Of a stretch of DNA of 64,000 nt, positions 37,376 to 47,482 are shown one piece after another. The notes under the pieces are model-generated. The model was not told where the DNA came from. It searched no databases and saw nothing but the letters and a program-made list of their open reading frames with translations. The position numbers and the translations under genes are program-made. This DNA is from Geothrix oryzae. Lineage in GTDB: Bacteria > Acidobacteriota > Holophagae > Holophagales > Holophagaceae. The DNA lies in the NCBI RefSeq assembly GCF_030295385.1, contig NZ_AP027079.1, positions 806,001 to 870,000 of the forward strand, written 5' to 3'. The stretch's first letter is position 1. Every line of letters begins with the position of its first letter.

Positions 37376-40300
37376 GTGTTCCCTGGTGCATCCGCGCTTT
37401 GCCGTGATCTTGTCCGTCTTCTGCCGAAGGCCTTCTGCTGGGTTCGGCGACGGTTGGGCCGCCTTTGCCAACCGGGCGGGCTTCGCGAAAGCGGGCTTGG
37501 TGTTGGATGGATCGTGGTGTTGGCCTGCATCCAGGCCTTCGCGGGGGCCGAAGGAGACCCGCTTCACGAAACGCCTTTGTCCCATCGGACGATCAAGCTT
37601 GGGATCGGCTCTGTCGATGCCGTGAGCGGGAGCCTGAATCTGCGGGTCCCCTTGGGGCCGAGACTTCCGGGACGGATTCCCATCGGGTTCACCTGGTCCT
37701 TCGACAACCAGGATGGTCTGCAGTCGGCCTATGGTCCATCGGGCGGGGCCGGGAGTGCCCTCGGCGGGAATGTCCGTCCCGTGGTCTGGCCGTCGATGAC
37801 AAATTTCGGCGACAGTCCGCTTCAATGCACCGTTCTGGTGGATGGCCATCCGATGGTCTTCCACCGGCGGTACGAGGCCGGGAGAATGCCCGGTCTCGCG
37901 GATCTCCAGAGCCGCATGCTGGAGCGTGGGGTGAACCCGGTTCCACCGAGGACGCCGCCTCCTGGCTATCTTCTCGATGATCCCGGGTCCCTGCAGGTGA
38001 CCGGGGCGCTCCCGTCCAGCGATGGCACCAAATTCCTGGTGGCCTTCTCCTACCTGGCGACGATCGAGCGCTACGACAAGAACACGCAGGAGACCATTGT
38101 CTCAACGCGGGCCTTGGCTCCGGGCTACGCGATCATCGATGGCCCCAATACCATCTGGACCCAGCGGGGAAATGGCGTCGTTCCCTTCGGACATGCATTG
38201 ACGCACTTCAGCAATCGCTGGGGAGACCACATCACCGTGGATGAATCCGAAACGACGGTGGAGCCTGATTTCCAGGTCCTCACCACCATCGTGATCCAGG
38301 ATCAGGTGGCGCCGGGCAACACCTTGACTCTGTCCGTGACCCCGTCAGGCCTGCCGGTCACCCATCGGAAATCCGGTACCGACGCTCGCAGCGGTCTGCC
38401 CTACGACTACCCCGCCGACCTCCGCTCGACCGGCCAGATGGAAGTGACGAACTCGTTCGGCCTGCCCAAAGCCACCCTCTTGGGGGCTTGCGCCTCCAAG
38501 CAACGCTTTGTTCCGAAACCGGCCATTACCTGTCCTGGGTACGATCCGCAGGCGGCCCCTGAGCCTGAATACACCTGGGACCACGGATTCGTACCCCTTA
38601 CGATCACCCATACCGCCGAGGACCAGTCCGTCCAGAAGCTTGGTTTTGATTGGGGCGAGGGTCTCTGGCCCACGGGCAACCTGAAACAAATCGACTACCC
38701 CAACGGGCTCCGGGAGAGCTTTCAATATGATTCCGCCATCCACCTCTCGGCCCTGAGCTTCAGCGAATGCGATGGTGCCTGGATGGGGTTCCGGCATGTG
38801 CGGGGAACCTACGCCCAGGAGGAAGAACTCGGAGCCTTCGTCTCGCGCAGCGTGGCCCGGATCTCCCGGCAGGACACGGTCGGATCCACCCCAGGGGAAT
38901 GCTATCAAATCCTGCGGGTGCGGCCCTGGTGGGATGGGACGCCACTGGGTCAGACCCGCACGCTCTGGACATGCAAAGAATACGAGAGCTCGACGGCCAT
39001 CCTGCACTATCCCGTCGCACAGCCGGATTCGGGATCGCCTTATCGAGCGGTTCGGCTGACCCATCCCTCCTATCGCGAGGATCTGAACCTGAGCGGTCCC
39101 CAGGGCTATCTGTTCGCCACAGCGGCCGTGCTTTACGAGGAGAACCTGACGGGCACGGGCCTGTCCGCGCTCCGGCCTTCAGACTTGGGCTCTTCCCCGT
39201 TTCAGGTGATTGTCTACGATGGCTTCGATCTGCGGAGCTGGGCCAACCCGTCGGGATCTTTGGCCAACGGCCTGCCCGTCAATGCCGTGCCTCTACGCAC
39301 GACCATTCATACCAAGGACCTTCCCACCCGTACGACCGTGGCTGGAAACCCCAACACGCCTGGGGCCCGGGATGAGTACGGGCCCGTGATCACCGACGAA
39401 TATACCGATGTGCCGTCCCAGTCCCTGCCAACACCCGATGGCGCGGCTGTGCCGATCTGGAGCAATGTCCTCCCATCGATGGAATCCTCTCAGCCCACCT
39501 GGCGGCGCGGCGAGATCCAGCGGAGTTTCGATGGGTCGAGGATGACCCTGCAGGTCAAGTCGGACCGGAAGAGCCTGACGCTGGATTCAGCCCAGACCCA
39601 CACGGCGCGCTTCGCCTCGGCGAACTCGACTCTCCCGGTGGCTCCACCCGCCATCCGGGTCGGCCAGGCGGATTTCGGGACCACGACCTACGACTACGAC
39701 GACTTCGGCAGGGTTGTCCGGCAGCAGGGAGACCGGGCCGGATTCTCGGCAGTTGAGGTTCGGAGCTATGTGCCTGGGCTCCCCTTGATCCTGGATCTTC
39801 GGAAGGAGCCGCTGTCGGGGCCTGGCGGCCCGTACCTTCCCAATCCAGATCGACCCGAAGTCGTGGCGGGGAAGGTCCACACCTGGCTGGATACCCATGT
39901 CCAGGCGGGGCCATCCACCGTTGTGGACAAGATCGACGGGCGCGTGGAGTCGTTCACCTACGAGGCCCAGTTGGGCCGCGAGACCTCCCATACGGATGTC
40001 CTTGGCATCACCACCCGGACGGATTACGACGCCTGGGGCCGCAAATGGCGGGTGACGCGGCAGCAGAAGGGCGTCGTCGGTTCGGTCACCACCGAGAGCA
40101 CCTACGATGCCAACGGTCGCTGGAAGGAGGAATCGGTGACCGCCGATGGCAAGACGGTACGCAGCCGCACGGAATGGGATGCCTTTGGCCGAACCGTGAA
40201 GGTGATCACCTTCGATGCGGCCGGGTCGAGGGTCGGAGAGCAGGCCCTCGAATACGATGGCTTCGGACAGAGGACGGCACAAAGCCCCAACCTGAAGCCG

Positions 40301-43300
40301 ACCCAGCAGTCCTGGGGCATGGAGCGATGGGCCTACGATGATCGCGGCCGGATGACGGATCACTGGGATGCCCAGGGCCGGCTGCTCCAGCACACGGTTC
40401 AGCAGCCCGCATGGACTTCGATCAGCGGCTTGGCGGCCGTGTGGACCTCCACTCAGGACGACCGGGGCCATGTGCGGTCGGAAGGGGTCGATCTCCTGGG
40501 CCAAAAGCGGGCCCTGGTGGACCAAGCGGGGCAGCTCAGTGAGTATTTCTACGATCAGGATGGCCACCTTCTGCAGACGCTCCAGGGGGCTGGAGCGGCC
40601 AGGCAGCAGCGCAGTTATGCCTACAACCCCATGGGATGGCTCATCAGCCGGACTGAACCGGAGGAGGGGACCACCGTCTATTCGAAGTTCACGATGTCAG
40701 GCACCCCACTCGTCAGTGAACAGTACGGCCGCGAAGGCTCCACGGTAAGGAACACCTTCACGACCACGCTCGATGGCCACAACCAGCCGAGCTCCGTCGT
40801 GGCGGCGGGCCCTGAGGGATCTGTCGTGCGTCGCTTCGGGTACGACTCAGCCTCCCGCCTGCCCGTGTTGCTATCCGAAACCCAGGATCTTCCAGACATC
40901 TGGGGGACGCCGCAAACCATGATCGAAGCCTATGGATACGACGACCTCTTCCGATTGAATTGGAAGTCTGTTTCTGACGGGCAACAGAGCTTCATCGTCT
41001 CGCAGACGCTCAATGCCCTTGGGCAGGCGACGAGCCTTACTTATCCGGAAGGGGGAGGCCGGCCGGCTTCGACCGTCACGGTGGATTACGACGACCAGAA
41101 CCGGCCTCGAAGCGTCAGAGCCGACGGAAACCTACGGGGGATGATGGTCTACGACCAGATCGCAGGTACCGCGGTGACGCATACCTTGATCCTCGGCAAC
41201 GGCGCCACCACGCTCTCGACCTTGGACAAGGATGAGCTGGCCCTGACGCAGCACGCGGTTCCCGGCGGGGTGGTCGAATCGAGCGCCATCACCTGGTCGG
41301 CGGGGGGCCTGATGCTCAGCCGCGGGAATGATGTCTTCAGCTATGACGAGCTCCAACGGCTAAGTGCCAGCCGCGTGGTGGGAGTCCATGGAGAACGCGT
41401 TGATCAGTGGTTCGGTTACGATTCATTCGGGAACCGGATCCAGTCCAATTTCGACTACGCGGAGGGTGAATCAGGCAGCCTCCAGCCTTCGGAGCTTCGC
41501 GCCTGGCGGGCTGATTCCATGGTTGGCAACGACCTCCCGGGTACCCTCGTGGCCCTGAGCCAGGGGAGTCCCGCGATGGCCGCGGCGATGGGTACCTACG
41601 ATACCGGGCGCCAGTACGATGCGTTGGGGCGCCTCAGTCAGGTGTTTGCCTATCCGGGTACTGCCAATGCGCTGGCCTCCTGGCTCTACGATCCTTCGGG
41701 GCGGGTGGTGAAGGAGAATGGAACCTCCTATCTGCTGGAGGCGTCAGGCCTTCGCTTCAAGCGCATGCGCGCCGATGGGAGCCTCGATTACACAGTCTAC
41801 GGATTCGGCCGGGAGCCCTTGGCTCAATTTTCTGTGCCTTCACCCGTGAGCCCTCCCAAATACCTCTCGGCAACGGCCTCGGGGCGCATCCGTCATCCAG
41901 CGGCCGGTGCCACCATCCTGCAACCCTCGGCGGCCATCACGGTGGCGCCGGGAAGCAGTGTGGCCTTCGCGGGAGAGACGACCTTCGGCACGGCCTGCAG
42001 TTGGGACTTCGGCGACCACAGCAGAGCCGTTGGCGCGAGGACAAGCCATGTCTTTACTCAGGCCGGCAGCTACACCGTGACCTTCAGGGCGCGAGCCGCG
42101 GGATATCGGGCGTCCGCCGATTCCGTCGTGGTCAGGGTGCTGGCTCGGCCCTCCATCACCCGTCTCACCGCCAGCCCGGCCAGCATCCTCCCGGGGGAAG
42201 GCGCCCTCCTGAGTTGGAAATCGAGCGGAGCCACCCAGCTGTCCATCGACCAGGGCGTCGGCGTGGTGGTAGGAAAGGGGCACCTCAAGGTGTTCCCGAG
42301 GGTGACCACGACCTACACGCTGACGGCGACGAATGCTGCGGGGAGCGTCACCGCGCAGGTGACTGTGGCGGTCAATGCGCCGGCGCCCCCAAGCATCGCC
42401 GAGTTTTCAGCGACGGCCAGCACCATTGCCTTGGGGCAGAGTTCGACCCTGACCTGGAGCGTCGCAAACGCCACCTCTCTCACCCTCGACGGGATCGGGC
42501 CGGTGGTGGGGAACAGCCTGGTGGTGTCTCCCACAGCGACGACGACCTATGTCCTGAGGGCCACCAATGGGGTGGGCTCAGTCAGTGCCTCGATCACCGT
42601 GGTGGTGGAGGTCGGCTTGCCCGTGATCGAGGAGTTCTATGCGGACCCGCAGGAAGTCTTGCCAGGCGGGCTCACGACCCTGAGGTGGTCCGTGAGCCAA
42701 GCCGATGGCCTCGAGATCAACGGCATGCCCGTGACGGGGAACAGCCTCGAACAGTCGCCCGCCGTGACGACTACCTACACGCTGACCGCCAGGAATCTGG
42801 TGGGAGCCGTGACCGCCACGGTGACGGTCATGGCGCGAGCCCCCGGGGCCCTGGTCTGGAAGCGCTCCATCGTCTATGGTTTCGGGCAGGAACTATCGGA
42901 GGATTCATCGGGTGTGGGAACGATGTTCATCCAGTCGGACCAGGTGGGGAGTCCCTCGGTGATGACCGATGCCTCGGGGACGATCGTGGGCCGATCCAAG
43001 AACCTTCCCTTCGGCGAGCGGATGGTCGGTTGGGGGAAAACGGCCCTCCGTCGCTTCACAAACCACGAGGAGGACCCGGACAGCGAGGCGATCTACATGC
43101 AGGCCCGGGAATACCTTCCCGTCTATGGAAAATTCGCCCAGGTGGACCCCGTCTATGACCAGACCAAAGACGATCCCGAATCCTGGAACCTCTACAACTA
43201 TGTGACGAACAACCCCGTGACGAAGACGGACCCGGATGGGCGGATCGCCGAGGTTCCAGAAATGGACGCATCCTCCTCGCGAATTTCGCAATCCGCCTGG

Positions 43301-43975
43301 GGTTTCGGCGATTCGGGCGGAATCGGCCTGTGGCATGCCGAAACGGACAACATGAAGGTGGCAGCGGACAATGCCAGGCTGCTCGGGGGAAGCACCCAAC
43401 CGATCGCGGGAACAAGCGAGGGCACCGCCGCCTCGGTGGCTAAGGCAAAAGAAACTGAAGCACCAACGGCGAAAACCGCGCAAACAATCAAATATGACAA
43501 TCCTAATGACAGCAGTAATGTGTCGACAAAATCTGCTGATATTATTAAAGGGTTGATGAAAGAAGCCGGTGCCACAGAAGTGGTTGTGACTGATACTGTC
43601 AGGACCACCCAGGAGCAGGCGAGTATCATGTATAAAAATGCATCTGCAAACCTAGATGCTCAGAAGAAACTCTATGGGATTGATGGAAATGCAGTGCTGA
43701 CGGTTTATTCAAATCTGCTCGCAGCAAAGAAGACTGAAACTGAAATCATTACGGGGATGAAAGCCAAGATCGATGAAATTAAATTGGCTAACCCTGGTGC
43801 ATTTAAACATACAGGAGATGCAAGTGTAAGGAATGTCATCGATATAAGTCCAACTAGAATAACTCCAAGCACCGCAGCGGAGAAATTTAAGGCAGCCGTT
43901 AAAGGAAGCAGCAAGATAGACAAATATTTCCTTCCTCCAAACGATCCTGCAATTCACATAGAAATTATTCAATAG
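37376..43975 (+). CDS. Giant Rhs/YD-repeat protein with PKD and Ig-like domains and an M15-peptidase-like C-terminal toxin
   Basis: Up to 2199 residues. A hydrophobic signal-like stretch (GWIVVLACIQAFAGA, residues 44-58) is followed by an Rhs-type N-domain (GSVDAVSGSLNLRVP). YD repeats occupy about 770-1485 (TYDYDDFGRVVRQQG, RQYDALGRLSQVF), then a PKD domain (CSWDFGDHSRAVG to AGSYTVTFRA, about 1520-1588) and three Ig-like repeats (about 1592-1822). The Rhs core follows (LPFGERMVGWG, YMQAREYLPVYGKFAQVDPV, LYNYVTNNPVTKTDPDG), ending near 1955. The last 244 residues are compositionally foreign and AT-rich. R2076/Q2079 (TVRTTQEQ), H2145, D2156 (FKHTGD, VIDIS) and H2194 (AIHIEI) suggest an M15-like D,D-peptidase. 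The start is uncertain: GTG 37376 is the longest option, and a TTG or GTG nearer the signal segment is equally possible. Confidence 0.86.
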   Translation: MFPGASALCRDLVRLLPKAFCWVRRRLGRLCQPGGLRESGLGVGWIVVLACIQAFAGAEGDPLHETPLSHRTIKLGIGSVDAVSGSLNLRVPLGPRLPGRIPIGFTWSFDNQDGLQSAYGPSGGAGSALGGNVRPVVWPSMTNFGDSPLQCTVLVDGHPMVFHRRYEAGRMPGLADLQSRMLERGVNPVPPRTPPPGYLLDDPGSLQVTGALPSSDGTKFLVAFSYLATIERYDKNTQETIVSTRALAPGYAIIDGPNTIWTQRGNGVVPFGHALTHFSNRWGDHITVDESETTVEPDFQVLTTIVIQDQVAPGNTLTLSVTPSGLPVTHRKSGTDARSGLPYDYPADLRSTGQMEVTNSFGLPKATLLGACASKQRFVPKPAITCPGYDPQAAPEPEYTWDHGFVPLTITHTAEDQSVQKLGFDWGEGLWPTGNLKQIDYPNGLRESFQYDSAIHLSALSFSECDGAWMGFRHVRGTYAQEEELGAFVSRSVARISRQDTVGSTPGECYQILRVRPWWDGTPLGQTRTLWTCKEYESSTAILHYPVAQPDSGSPYRAVRLTHPSYREDLNLSGPQGYLFATAAVLYEENLTGTGLSALRPSDLGSSPFQVIVYDGFDLRSWANPSGSLANGLPVNAVPLRTTIHTKDLPTRTTVAGNPNTPGARDEYGPVITDEYTDVPSQSLPTPDGAAVPIWSNVLPSMESSQPTWRRGEIQRSFDGSRMTLQVKSDRKSLTLDSAQTHTARFASANSTLPVAPPAIRVGQADFGTTTYDYDDFGRVVRQQGDRAGFSAVEVRSYVPGLPLILDLRKEPLSGPGGPYLPNPDRPEVVAGKVHTWLDTHVQAGPSTVVDKIDGRVESFTYEAQLGRETSHTDVLGITTRTDYDAWGRKWRVTRQQKGVVGSVTTESTYDANGRWKEESVTADGKTVRSRTEWDAFGRTVKVITFDAAGSRVGEQALEYDGFGQRTAQSPNLKPTQQSWGMERWAYDDRGRMTDHWDAQGRLLQHTVQQPAWTSISGLAAVWTSTQDDRGHVRSEGVDLLGQKRALVDQAGQLSEYFYDQDGHLLQTLQGAGAARQQRSYAYNPMGWLISRTEPEEGTTVYSKFTMSGTPLVSEQYGREGSTVRNTFTTTLDGHNQPSSVVAAGPEGSVVRRFGYDSASRLPVLLSETQDLPDIWGTPQTMIEAYGYDDLFRLNWKSVSDGQQSFIVSQTLNALGQATSLTYPEGGGRPASTVTVDYDDQNRPRSVRADGNLRGMMVYDQIAGTAVTHTLILGNGATTLSTLDKDELALTQHAVPGGVVESSAITWSAGGLMLSRGNDVFSYDELQRLSASRVVGVHGERVDQWFGYDSFGNRIQSNFDYAEGESGSLQPSELRAWRADSMVGNDLPGTLVALSQGSPAMAAAMGTYDTGRQYDALGRLSQVFAYPGTANALASWLYDPSGRVVKENGTSYLLEASGLRFKRMRADGSLDYTVYGFGREPLAQFSVPSPVSPPKYLSATASGRIRHPAAGATILQPSAAITVAPGSSVAFAGETTFGTACSWDFGDHSRAVGARTSHVFTQAGSYTVTFRARAAGYRASADSVVVRVLARPSITRLTASPASILPGEGALLSWKSSGATQLSIDQGVGVVVGKGHLKVFPRVTTTYTLTATNAAGSVTAQVTVAVNAPAPPSIAEFSATASTIALGQSSTLTWSVANATSLTLDGIGPVVGNSLVVSPTATTTYVLRATNGVGSVSASITVVVEVGLPVIEEFYADPQEVLPGGLTTLRWSVSQADGLEINGMPVTGNSLEQSPAVTTTYTLTARNLVGAVTATVTVMARAPGALVWKRSIVYGFGQELSEDSSGVGTMFIQSDQVGSPSVMTDASGTIVGRSKNLPFGERMVGWGKTALRRFTNHEEDPDSEAIYMQAREYLPVYGKFAQVDPVYDQTKDDPESWNLYNYVTNNPVTKTDPDGRIAEVPEMDASSSRISQSAWGFGDSGGIGLWHAETDNMKVAADNARLLGGSTQPIAGTSEGTAASVAKAKETEAPTAKTAQTIKYDNPNDSSNVSTKSADIIKGLMKEAGATEVVVTDTVRTTQEQASIMYKNASANLDAQKKLYGIDGNAVLTVYSNLLAAKKTETEIITGMKAKIDEIKLANPGAFKHTGDASVRNVIDISPTRITPSTAAEKFKAAVKGSSKIDKYFLPPNDPAIHIEIIQ

Positions 43976-43986
43976 GAGTTAATGAG

Positions 43987-44400
43987 ATGATTATCAAAAA
44001 TATCATTTTATCAATAATTATTACATCTATGTGCATTGCCAAAGAGCCACAGAAGAAGGTTAATGCTATGTTGAGCAATAATATGATTAAAATTGAAAAC
44101 AATAAATATGTATATGTAAAGCGGTGGTTCGAAAACCATTTTGGTGCTGAAATCGATTTAATAATTGCAGGAAAGGATTTGAATCCTGATTCCCTGAAAA
44201 GGGAGATCACCACGATTGTCAAGGAATATTGCGATTCACCTTTGAAGGATGCATTCCTGGCTCGCATTGCGAGCCTTAATGAGGTCGAACTAGGGCAACA
44301 CTATTTGGTAAAATGCGAACCATATTCCGAAGCTTTTTTTATGTGGACTAAAGTTGGGTTAATCGATGTGGTTACCGTGAAGTTTTATGGATCTCTTTAA
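43987..44400 (+). CDS. Probable immunity protein for the Rhs C-terminal toxin, exported
   Basis: A 137-residue protein encoded in clearly AT-rich DNA, starting 11 bases after the Rhs stop with AGGAG overlapping that stop. The N-terminus MIIKNIILSIIITSMCIA is a signal peptide (a Cys at the end might be a weak lipobox). The mature part is mixed alpha/beta (YVYVKRWFENHFGAEIDLII) with two Cys. I recognise no family. Position directly after a polymorphic toxin and periplasmic targeting, where a peptidoglycan peptidase would act, make a cognate immunity role the best inference. Its TAA stop is in the same frame as the following toxin-like module. Confidence 0.62.
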   Translation: MIIKNIILSIIITSMCIAKEPQKKVNAMLSNNMIKIENNKYVYVKRWFENHFGAEIDLIIAGKDLNPDSLKREITTIVKEYCDSPLKDAFLARIASLNEVELGQHYLVKCEPYSEAFFMWTKVGLIDVVTVKFYGSL

Positions 44401-44511
44401 TGGTCCGCGCAAACAACTCTCGTTGGATACTTCGACCAGTCCACTGGTGCAGCTTGGATCGATACCACAACAACCAGAAGTGATGGCTCATCAACAACCA
44501 CGATTACAAAT

Positions 44512-44949
44512 TTGGGTGACAAGAATTACAGCGGCAGAGGGAGTGGGAAGAACAACCCTGATTCGGAAGGCGAAAAGGGAAATCCCAAAACGCCCAATCT
44601 CAATGCTGGAGTTATTCCTGTAGGTGATTACCGGATATCGGGTCCAGAGAAGCACCCATCGATTAAAGGAGATCCTGTCCTAAGATTGACCCCCACAGGC
44701 GATCAAGACATGCATAGTAGAAATGGATTTCTCATCCATGGAGATAGTTCAAGTCATCCAGGCGAGGCATCTCAAGGTTGTATCGTTATGCCGCATGGAG
44801 CACGACAAACATTAGTAAATATGAATGTCACTAATCTCGTGGTGATTGGTCCTATTCGGGTTTCGCCCGGAAGGACTGTGCCAAGTGGTCCTGATTCAGC
44901 AGGGCAAATGACAATTGAGAGGCTTGCAAATTTGGACGGTGGAGGCTGA
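44512..44949 (+). CDS. Orphan Rhs C-terminal toxin module, Tlde1/DUF2778-like (L,D-transpeptidase fold)
   Basis: The open frame actually begins at 44401, directly after the TAA of the preceding gene. It reads TLVGYFDQSTGAAWID and then YSGRGSGKNNPDSEG, GVIPVGDYRISGPEKHP, RNGFLIHGDSSSHPG and ASQGCIVMPHGARQTL. That order matches the whole Tlde1/DUF2778 domain, a type VI effector family that cleaves or exchanges peptidoglycan stem peptides. Catalytic His (codon 44737) and Cys (44779) are present. No ATG or GTG occurs before the domain; the first usable start is TTG 44512, which cuts off the domain's first strands. I read it as a displaced Rhs C-terminus kept without its own start, paired with the immunity gene at 44951. 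Confidence 0.66.
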   Translation: MGDKNYSGRGSGKNNPDSEGEKGNPKTPNLNAGVIPVGDYRISGPEKHPSIKGDPVLRLTPTGDQDMHSRNGFLIHGDSSSHPGEASQGCIVMPHGARQTLVNMNVTNLVVIGPIRVSPGRTVPSGPDSAGQMTIERLANLDGGG

Positions 44950-44950
44950 C

Positions 44951-45526
44951 ATGAGGTATTTAATATTGCTGTTTCTAGGATTACCAGGGGCTACTCTTCT
45001 CGCCTCAGGTCTGCATGGAATTAGGCTATTTGAGGACAAGAAAATTCAGTTAAATACCAGCGCGAAAGAGCTCAACATAGAGGATGTTGGTGAAGGGGTC
45101 CAACGATTTGGTCTCGTAGCAAAACATCATAAAATTAATCTAGAATTTGAAGTGGAAACTGGAGAGCCAACAGTGGTTTCGGATGAGTACCAAATGGCTT
45201 TCGGGATTGTTCCAAATATCAGGGCCGAGAAGCTCAAATGGTTGAAAATTCATCTCGACAGTAAATTAGTAACTCTGCCAAGAACTTCATATGATCGTTT
45301 ATATCAAACAAAAATTATCAAGTGTCAATTCTCAGCTGGTGGGTTTGAATTAATAATTTTTGGAGGAGACGGTGCTGATGCTTATGTGTGCACCTTGTCT
45401 TTTAATTATAAGAGATTAAAGAAAAGGGAAATTTGTGCCCTGGACAAGTCATTCCCCTCCTCGTCAGAGGTAACTATCTACAGAGACGATTACGAGGATT
45501 TCTCAAGCGGAAAGGCAAAGAAGTGA
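44951..45526 (+). CDS. Probable immunity protein for the orphan Tlde1-like toxin, exported
   Basis: A 191-residue protein beginning MRYLILLFLGLPGATLLASG, a clear signal peptide, so it should act in the periplasm. The mature region is beta-rich (QRFGLVAKHHKINLEFEVET, SFNYKRLKK) and Lys-rich, with no family I recognise. GGAGG at 44941-44945 precedes ATG 44951, and the start follows the toxin stop by one base, so it is coupled. AT-rich composition matches the two genes before it and not the host. A terminator follows 15 bases after the stop. Confidence 0.62.
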   Translation: MRYLILLFLGLPGATLLASGLHGIRLFEDKKIQLNTSAKELNIEDVGEGVQRFGLVAKHHKINLEFEVETGEPTVVSDEYQMAFGIVPNIRAEKLKWLKIHLDSKLVTLPRTSYDRLYQTKIIKCQFSAGGFELIIFGGDGADAYVCTLSFNYKRLKKREICALDKSFPSSSEVTIYRDDYEDFSSGKAKK

Positions 45527-45541
45527 AGCACACGACACCTC

Positions 45542-45567
45542 AAAGCCCCGGATCCCAAGGGCTTTTT
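45542..45567 (+). terminator. Rho-independent terminator of the Rhs toxin-immunity locus
   Basis: Stem AAAGCCC (45542-45548) with GGGCTTT (45559-45565), extended by two further T (TTTTT at 45563-45567). It closes the whole plus-strand toxin/immunity run. The remaining 190 bases to murJ hold no gene I can see. Confidence 0.72.
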
Positions 45568-45760
45568 CGTGGTCACGCCCACACGGGTGTGCGAATGTGC
45601 CTGAATGCAGAAAGTCCCGGATGAACCTGGGGCGATGACGGTATCTCTATCGTGATCTCCAGTGGTGATCTTGGTATATCAGTGCTGTGCTTTTGAGTGC
45701 ATCTTTGGTGTTGGATTTCCTGTTCGGGGAAATAGATCTGAAACTAAAGCAGACCACCTC

Positions 45761-47365
45761 TTAGCGGCGAACGAGCTTTCCTCGGAGCTTCGCGGCTAGG
45801 TTGCGGGCCTCGGGATGCCCGAATCCCGCGGCAGTAGCTCCGTAAACCACCGCGCAGAGGGCCACGAGGGGCAGGACTTTCAGCGCCAGGGCGGCGCGGG
45901 TGAAGGCGTGGGGGGCGTCGAGGGTGAGGAGGTGCGCGCCGCCCCAGGCGAGCAGGCCCATGAGGAGGCAGGCGGCGAGGGCGCGGGCGGTGGCGTTCAG
46001 GAGGGGGCGCAGGTCCAGGCCGGGCAGGCGGGGGCGCAGGCGCAGCAGCAGGCCCGCGAGGCCCGCGAGGCTGGCGAGGCCGTTGGCCAGGGCCAGGCCG
46101 CCGGTGCCGAGGGGCTTCAGCAGCGCGAGGCTGAGGGCCACATTCACCACCAGGGTGGCACCCGCCAGGGCCGCGGGGCCGCGGTAGTCCTTGAGGGCGT
46201 AGAGGGCCTGATTGCCCAGGCGCTGGGCGGCCACGAAGACCAGGCCCACGGACTGGAACACCAGGGTGAGGGCGGTCCAGTCGGCGGCGGCGGGATCGTA
46301 GGCGCCGGTGCGGAAGAGCAGGGCGCAGATGGGCCGCGCCAGCACGGCGAGGCCCACGGAGGCCGGCAGCACCAGCAGGGCTGAGGCCGAGATGGACTGC
46401 GTGAGGCTGCGGTTCAGGGCGGGCCAGTCGCGGGCCTCGGCCTGGCGCGAGAGGGTGGGCAGTCCGGCGGTGGCGAGGCTCATGGCGAAGAGCCCCAGCA
46501 CCATCTCGCCCATCATGCCGCTGTTGTAGAGCACCATCTGGGCGCCGTTGGGGAGCATGGAGGCCAGCATGGCGCTGATCAGGGCGTTGATGGGGTAGAT
46601 GCCGGCGGCCAGGAGGCCCGGCCCCATGCGCTTGAGGGCCTTGCGGACCCAGGGGTCGCGCAGGTGCAGGCCGACGGCGAGGCCGAAGCCCTCCTTCCGC
46701 ACGGCGGGCAGGATGACCAGCAGCTGGAGCACGCCCCCCGCCAGCACGGCCAGGGCGCACACGACCGCAACCGTCTCGAGCGGCACCTGGCCGCCTCGCC
46801 CCAGTAGGCGCAGCGAGAGCCACCCGAAGGCGATGAAGGCCAGGTTCCAGAACACGGAGACCGAGGCCGCCAGGGCGAAGCGGTGGCGCAGGTTCAGCAG
46901 GCCCGCGAAGCCCGCCGTGAGGCTCACCAGGGCCAGGTAGGGGAACATGATGCGGCCCAGCCGGGTGGTGAGCTCGCTCTGGGCCTCGGGGCGCCCCAGC
47001 ATCAGCAGGCCCGCCAGGGGCCCCATGAACAGGAGGACGAGGACCACGCCCAGCAGCAGGATCACCAGCAGGGTGCCCAGGAACCGTGCCGCCACGGCCT
47101 TCACGGCGGCCTCGCCCTCGGCGGCCTCGGCTTCGGCCAGGGTGGGCAGGAAGGCGGCGGTCATGGTGCCTTCGGCGGTGAAGCGGCGCAGCAGGTTGGG
47201 CAGGCGGAAGGCCACGGCGTAGGCATCCGCGGCGGCCCCCGCCCCCAGCACATGGCTGAGGAAGAAGGTCTGGAGCAGCCCCGTGAGGCGGCTCAGCAGC
47301 GTCATCAGCCCGACGACCCCGGCGGAGCGGAGCAGGCTGGGACGGGCGCGGGGGGAATCGCTCAC
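45761..47365 (-). CDS. murJ: Lipid II flippase MurJ
   Basis: A 534-residue, 14-helix MVF-family membrane protein. The N-terminus SLLRSAGVVGLMTLLSRLTG, then FFLSHVLGAGAAADAYAVAF and RLPNLLRRFTAEGTMTAAFL, are classic MviN/MurJ text. The family translocates lipid II across the inner membrane for peptidoglycan synthesis. I start it at GTG 47365: the open frame continues through the tRNA-Thr gene, which cannot be coding. No good ribosome site is visible, so the start is slightly uncertain. It follows tRNA-Thr on the same strand. Confidence 0.94.
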   Translation of the reverse strand: MSDSPRARPSLLRSAGVVGLMTLLSRLTGLLQTFFLSHVLGAGAAADAYAVAFRLPNLLRRFTAEGTMTAAFLPTLAEAEAAEGEAAVKAVAARFLGTLLVILLLGVVLVLLFMGPLAGLLMLGRPEAQSELTTRLGRIMFPYLALVSLTAGFAGLLNLRHRFALAASVSVFWNLAFIAFGWLSLRLLGRGGQVPLETVAVVCALAVLAGGVLQLLVILPAVRKEGFGLAVGLHLRDPWVRKALKRMGPGLLAAGIYPINALISAMLASMLPNGAQMVLYNSGMMGEMVLGLFAMSLATAGLPTLSRQAEARDWPALNRSLTQSISASALLVLPASVGLAVLARPICALLFRTGAYDPAAADWTALTLVFQSVGLVFVAAQRLGNQALYALKDYRGPAALAGATLVVNVALSLALLKPLGTGGLALANGLASLAGLAGLLLRLRPRLPGLDLRPLLNATARALAACLLMGLLAWGGAHLLTLDAPHAFTRAALALKVLPLVALCAVVYGATAAGFGHPEARNLAAKLRGKLVRR

Positions 47366-47406
47366 GGTCGGGTCTGGGCGGAATGGTCCATGAGGTTCCC
47401 CGGCAT

Positions 47407-47482
47407 TGGAGCCGCCTGCCGGAATCGAACCGGCGACCTCCAGATTACAAAGCTGGAGCTCTACCAACTGAGCTAAGGCGGC
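47407..47482 (-). tRNA. tRNA-Thr (anticodon TGU)
   Basis: The minus strand gives a full 76-base cloverleaf with encoded CCA. The acceptor arms GCCGCCT/AGGCGGC pair fully, the D arm is GCTC...GAGC, the T arm GCCGG-TTCGATT-CCGGC and the anticodon loop TTTGTAA gives anticodon TGT. The anticodon stem has four good pairs; the loop-closing pair 31-39 is C opposite T. The gene lies between accC and murJ. Confidence 0.95.

Follow-up and report, generated by a model that had tools for sequence, protein, structure and literature searches.

A predicted M15-like peptidase forms the exchangeable tip of a Sec-type Rhs protein in Geothrix oryzae, next to a candidate periplasmic immunity protein

Polymorphic toxins that leave the cell through Sec have been described (PMC3482391), as have RHS shells and tips of the NlpC/P60 type joined to RHS repeats, and the locus reported here shares with the Sec-exported Rhs/YD-repeat toxins of that article a signal peptide, an RHS shell, a core, an exchangeable tip and a partner gene. 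VanY, D-Ala-D-Ala, dd-peptidase and carboxypeptidase have no mention in the first 300,000 characters of that article, in which we saw no sign of the tip family described below. M15-like domains have been reported in WHIX effectors of type VI secretion systems (T6SS) (PMC12135965), and a Neisseria protein combining LysM and M15 has been reported as a T6SS effector (PMC10210955). These are wall peptidase toxins, as we predict the present tip to be, and a Scandinavium T6SS LysM protein encoded between vgrG and a PAAR gene ends in the very domain found here; unlike the present tip, they are delivered by a T6SS, for which no sheath gene was found in 47 genomes of the window's genus. A VanY-like carboxypeptidase-related toxin domain coupled to an immunity gene has been predicted in polymorphic toxins (PMC12419801); its setting is that of Lipocone toxins. 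Among the matches listed for Rhs with M15, VanY or Tlde1, and for Acidobacteria or Geothrix, none describes an Rhs protein with such a tip and an exported immunity partner, as judged from titles and the beginnings of abstracts. The original prediction that no Rhs effector of this pairing is described stands for those matches, and it has to be narrowed in that M15-like T6SS and polymorphic toxin domains are already published.

We analyzed a stretch of 64,000 nucleotides of the Geothrix oryzae genome, referred to as the window; the genome that contains it is a single contig of 3.27 Mb. An ORF call on the forward strand places a Rhs/YD-repeat protein gene at 37376..43975, encoding 2199 residues counted from the first GTG as a putative start. 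Scans with Pfam and NCBIfam identified RHS repeats, a PKD domain and an RHS core in the product. A hydrophobic stretch, LGVGWIVVLACIQAFAG (37496..37546, forward strand), was read by eye as a Sec signal peptide, and Rhs genes of four other genomes of the genus likewise appear by eye to encode a signal-like N-terminus. The RHS core (TIGR03696, E 1.2e-15) extends to residue 1955, window position 43240, and closes with the sequence NNPVTKTDPDG (43208..43240, forward strand). This confirms both the placement of the core end at TDPDG near 43236 in the original prediction and its count of 244 Rhs residues past the conserved core. It had also described a turn to AT-rich DNA beyond the core, and the composition in 500-base windows agrees: GC runs at 0.59-0.67 over the Rhs gene ahead of the tip, falls to 0.36-0.51 from 43250 to 45749, and is back up at 0.61-0.76 after about 45750.

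Comparison with related genomes revealed a replaceable cassette at 43488..45758, to which no strand is assigned and inside which blastn found no match to the same-species genome G396. DNA identity to G396 (95%) ends at 43487 and resumes (99%) at 45759, and identity to the same-genus genome G040 (92%) ends at 43243, beside the core end, and resumes (97%) at 45807. The linker between the core and the toxin domain (43241..43486, forward strand) belongs to the stretch that is 95% identical to G396 despite the differing toxin domains. Tips that differ behind 92% and 95% identical DNA, following a TIGR03696 core, present the variable tip behind a conserved RHS core that characterizes Rhs polymorphic toxins. 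The start of the toxin domain had been set by eye before any homolog was found; because the same-species identity ends at this independently chosen position, 43487, the domain is unlikely to be a product of chance.

Related genomes carry other predicted wall-cutting enzymes in place of this tip. The tip of G396 at the same locus (L089) is NlpC/P60 by Pfam (E 6.1e-7), and that of G040 (L090) contains SPHYEGLAVDI and GPHFHFQL, which look M15-like by eye; both are followed by a signal-bearing neighbor. Profile comparison with tips of the G040 type (A6) gave nothing, so the M15-like label for this tip is a motif reading only; PDB and Pfam searches with it were empty. Also retained in G396 is an orphan gene that shares 58% identity with the gene partnering the G040 tip. 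The window holds a displaced tip of its own at 44401..44949 (forward strand), in frame right after the stop codon of the gene that follows the Rhs gene, and without a core or a clear start. This orphan frame passes the Pfam cut-off for Tlde1 (PF10908, E 3.5e-7, 31.1 bits against a cut-off of 30.1); a PDB sequence search with it returned no peptidase. Tlde1 is an L,D-transpeptidase effector of T6SS, whereas this L,D-transpeptidase-fold frame, which follows a Sec-type Rhs protein in a genus with no detected T6SS sheath gene, would be a displaced tip. The next gene (44951..45526, forward strand) encodes 191 residues with a signal-like N-terminus by eye and no Pfam or NCBIfam match, and is the candidate partner of the Tlde1 tip (candidate immunity protein 2). 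Counting the tips of the window, G396 and G040 together with the displaced Tlde1, four different tips have sat at one locus in three genomes, two of them wall enzymes by Pfam. This natural series offers a way to learn how a Sec-exported Rhs protein may reach and harm a neighbor without a T6SS. Right after the cassette, in the conserved right flank, a gene on the opposite strand (45761-47467) resembles by eye the lipid II flippase MurJ.

Relatives, an alignment and structural models delimit a predicted M15-like metallopeptidase toxin domain of 162 residues (2038-2199; 43487..43972, forward strand); it has no Pfam or NCBIfam match above cut-off and, at E 0.01, none in PHROGs. The alignment, A4, contains 41 rows; it omits L005, L006 and L008, L002 and L003 (the same records as L009 and L030), L004 (false), L007 (partial tip), L037 (broken frame), L055-L058 (partial matches), and L040, L041, L043, L052 and L053 (near copies or redundant). 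Eight of its columns are without variation: Q44, M48, G67, M91, H108, D119, H157 and E159. On the forward strand of the window, the predicted zinc ligands are H2145 (alignment H108, 43808..43810), D2156 (D119, 43841..43843) and H2194 (H157, 43955..43957), and the acid of an HxE motif, E2196 (E159, 43961..43963), is a candidate general base; all four are conserved in 41/41 rows. An R[ST]xxxQ motif, R39 to Q44, is encoded at 43601..43618 (forward strand), with R in 40/41 and Q in 41/41 rows. The H2145, D2156, H2194 and TVRTTQEQ named in the original prediction were all found where it had put them, and the H/D/H pattern goes beyond chance because the same residues are invariant in all 41 aligned relatives.

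The window copy deviates from its relatives at two near-invariant positions, S36, which is D (S in 39/41 rows), and S106, which is F (S in 40/41), and for this reason its activity may be lowered or altered. Carried further, these replacements would fit an M15-like fold whose window copy has little or no activity left and persists as a relic beside an immunity gene; the occurrence of the domain in one of 47 genus genomes, which leaves no orthologs for a selection test, gives such a reading room. We consider it unlikely, as neither the open frame nor the neighboring gene is broken and none of the eight invariant residues is lost.

AlphaFold2 models were computed with the window sequence first (model one, mean pLDDT 95.8) and with L009 first (model two, 94.8). 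VanXYc was the top row of VIA-align for both (Z 6.2 and 6.4, 113 and 118 residues, rmsd 3.2 and 4.9), VanYB followed at Z 5.6 for model one and 5.5 for model two, and model two also matched the phage T5 endopeptidase (Z 4.8) and LdcB-type enzymes (Z 4.4 and 4.0). VIA-align scores with Z under 8 may reflect merely a common arrangement, and Z alone is not decisive here because unrelated short matches reach similar values, namely a phage helicase loader (6.0 over 63-67 residues, both models) and PilO (5.8 over 78 residues, in the list of model one). The M15 rows span 109-118 residues, that is, the whole domain. The searches gave no confident hit to any non-peptidase fold, the outcome that would have spoken against the original prediction, and over full length both models are best matched by M15 enzymes (VanXY, VanY, LdcB and the phage T5 L-alanoyl-D-glutamate peptidase among them), at modest Z. 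Foldseek against the PDB gave no match at E 0.001 or better for either model, and against a viral library it gave one, the unnamed 174-residue protein A0A8S5VRB5 (E 7.3e-8). In model one, residue 162 pairs with VanXYc residue 161, and with a last strand free of gaps this would put H157 on VanXYc residue 156. The His of EPWH in the VanXYc sequence lies at construct position 177, which we take to be residue 156, a zinc ligand. The Glu of the M15 EPWH motif is the catalytic base.

The residues that characterize family M15 are retained in part. The predicted ligands H108, D119 and H157 (41/41) follow the order H, D, H as in VanXYc, and S-x-x-R-[ST]-x3-Q, S-x-H, D and the final H occur in the same order as in M15, with equal R-to-Q spacing. 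The substrate motif S-x-x-R-[ST]-x3-Q is present in the relatives (S 39/41, R 40/41, Q 41/41), whereas the window copy has its R, T and Q and a D in place of S. The H-x6-D of the M15 motif SxHxxGxAxD is not found: the H-to-D spacing is 11 in 38/41 rows including the window and 9, 9 and 14 in the other three, against 7 in the VanY set. Nor is there a Glu three residues before the last His as in EPWH. The acids near this His are a D four residues upstream in 34/41 rows and an E two residues downstream in 41/41, so that the sequence mostly reads D-P-x-x-H-x-E. The window domain further differs from M15 in a long helical stretch between R and H (model residues 41-101). It gave no sequence match to curated M15 models, and no convincing one came from the family: among the 41 members, one matches vanXY (E 0.0036), one vanY_far (0.24) and one Pfam VanY (0.23). 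Profile comparison with a VanY alignment was weak (E 0.0013, probability 18.8%, 34 columns). PDB sequence searches with the domain and with profiles A1 and A4 returned no peptidase; weak matches to OXA-51, fumarase and Rab_bind were taken as chance. Because the H-to-D spacing and the position of the catalytic Glu both depart from M15, we keep the domain outside that family. We call it M15-like, a separate unnamed family that, judging from its sequence pattern, its model and its company, would work like an M15 peptidase. The original description of H-D-H and TVRTTQEQ as an M15/VanX-type arrangement is upheld for the ligand order and the R-to-Q motif, and not for the H-D spacing (11 rather than 7) or the EPWH Glu.

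Besides the window itself, domain searches over 396 genomes of the phylum gave two true relatives and a single false match, L004 (E 0.0086), which was dropped as a chemotaxis-receptor-like protein by eye. In plasmid and phage records, relatives turned up in a T6SS locus of Scandinavium, an Rhs protein of Prevotella, a partial tip from Pseudoalteromonas and a protein from a faecal phage record. With a three-sequence alignment as query, relatives were found encoded in 32/84 pattern stretches of genome contigs, two of the 32 being records found earlier, and in 18/67 pattern stretches of viral contigs, several of the 18 being near copies; a viral scan with a single protein as query found no relatives. 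The record titles place them in Acidobacteriota, Bacteroidota, Proteobacteria, Actinobacteria, Chloroflexota (Anaerolineae) and other groups. In a hand-picked set of 19 relatives' proteins scanned with Pfam, of which L057 was chosen with its PHROGs result already known, nine carry a wall-cutting or wall-binding domain: SLT (L012, L014, L019), Amidase_2 (L018), Amidase_3 (L015), Glucosaminidase (L039), LysM (L005) or PG_binding_1 (L029, L057). L057, a protein of 264 residues on a viral contig, combines an endolysin-type binding domain with the toxin-domain relative as its sole visible enzyme. Rhs proteins carrying the domain were found at L006, L022, L025 and L028, where the RHS core scores over its cut-off, and at L026, where it scores below. 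This is a testable candidate wall-hydrolase family, unrecognized by the curated libraries searched, with members in Rhs tips, in a protein linked to a T6SS and in one that resembles an endolysin. Among further observations, the Scandinavium plasmid T6SS cluster (L005) consists of vgrG, the LysM protein ending in the domain, a signal-bearing neighbor and a PAAR gene. Viral-contig proteins L042-L054, most of about 720-780 residues, contain the domain and a tail at their end and have a similar-looking next gene; the three that were scanned (L042, L045 and L050) match no PHROGs family.

The same fusions bear on the idea that the domain serves to process its own Rhs protein, or has a periplasmic protein instead of the wall as its target. 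Self-processing peptidases are frequent in polymorphic toxins, according to PMC3482391. This domain, though, belongs to the exchangeable part downstream of the core, where G396 has an NlpC/P60 wall hydrolase, and its relatives are fused to wall hydrolases or to an endolysin-type wall-binding domain; we regard the idea as quite improbable.

The gene next to the toxin tip (43987..44400, forward strand) starts 11 nt past the toxin stop codon and encodes candidate immunity protein 1. As originally predicted, it is short (137 residues), AT-rich (within the windows of GC 0.36-0.51) and signal-bearing, with an N-terminal hydrophobic stretch. Its position and signal-like N-terminus fit an adjacent immunity gene, and protection is its candidate role. 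Comparison of its product with the neighbors of L007 and L024 revealed a weak likeness that is suggestive, with 5 and 10 of 1000 shuffles scoring equally high; between the L007 and L024 neighbors, 0 of 1000 shuffles score as high. A match to argonaute (19.7 bits against 700) was rejected as chance, and tblastn of immunity proteins 1 and 2 and the Tlde1 frame over the collected loci found no convincing relative. Bacteroidota Rhs tips that carry the domain are adjoined by a lipoprotein-like gene. The products of the next genes of L022, L025, L026, L028, L032 and L034 (the last two being near copies) align with an invariant lipobox Cys and are 20-28% identical to the first. By eye, an exported-looking next gene is present at 11/32 genome loci (L022, L025-L028, L032-L034, L036, L039 and L040), with none apparent at the remaining genome loci, and it is also present at L005, L006 and L007.

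This neighborhood extends to other tips of the genus. RHS cores were found in 20/47 genus genomes and at 41 places in all; the analysis covered 30 of these places as loci. A tip motif search over these 30 loci and ten longer stretches, which did not catch other genus loci, yielded 20 distinct tips, one of them cut by a contig or locus end. Pfam assigns 3/17 of the other genus tips above cut-off, all to wall hydrolases (NlpC/P60, SLT and M23), and finds no family above cut-off for 14/17. Among those 14, the L083 tip leans weakly to M91, a non-wall metallopeptidase (20.5 bits against 25). A reading by eye of L063 as Tlde1-like was set aside without Pfam support. Exported-looking genes follow 15/19 genus tips, compared with 6/46 gene-like ORFs of the window, at an N-terminal hydropathy of 2.2; at 1.9 the counts are 17/19 (one on the threshold) and 14/46. 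Hydropathy is a crude measure used here without a signal predictor, with the best start codon taken in both sets, and the 19 tips include that of the window, two that share one toxin, and L075, whose neighbor may be a membrane protein. The original pairing of a wall toxin with an exported partner is largely supported by the wall-domain fusions and the recurring signal-bearing neighbors, with the correction that the enzyme would not be a textbook M15 peptidase. That the Rhs protein is instead a surface wall-remodeling enzyme beside a gene unrelated to immunity, as would be allowed by several relatives that belong to wall hydrolases of many domains or occur alone, with no exported-looking gene next to them, is the least probable reading, given the tip polymorphism at one locus, the displaced tip with a neighbor of its own, and the G396 orphan gene resembling the G040 tip partner.

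We therefore return to the reading of this locus as a Sec-exported Rhs polymorphic toxin whose exchangeable tip is an M15-like peptidoglycan peptidase and whose periplasmic immunity protein is the 43987 product, which we consider likely. The huge exported protein would probably end in a zinc enzyme that cuts the cell wall of rivals, and its small exported neighbor would probably protect the producer. The Rhs protein would leave the cell through Sec and would have to reach a neighbor, its YD-repeat shell keeping hold of the tip until it is set free in that neighbor's periplasm. There, H2145, D2156 and H2194 would hold a zinc ion, R2076 and Q2081 may lie in the substrate groove, either E2196 or D2190, both acids close to the last His, would activate water, and the target would be a peptide bond of wall stem peptides or cross-links. 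Because the Rhs protein would cross the producer's own periplasm, the producer needs immunity in that compartment, where the 43987 product is the putative protector.

A search for the T6SS sheath family VipB/TssC (PF05943) found it in 0/47 genus genomes and was positive in the E. coli control; 30 of the 47 reach a completeness of 90% or more with contamination no higher than 5%. Since no sheath gene was found in the genus genomes searched and the Rhs protein begins with a signal-like sequence, T6SS delivery is not indicated. The arguments seem to us evenly balanced on a broader claim, that an undescribed family of wall-cutting zinc peptidases, spread over several phyla and phages, here supplies one tip of an Rhs system that is exported by Sec and free of T6SS, with a periplasm-aimed tip repertoire and periplasmic immunity as the rule. 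Relatives of Tlde1 are present in 2/47 genus genomes, that of the window included. One genome of the genus, G076, has 14 RHS core matches, several of them clustered with short frames that resemble orphan tips.
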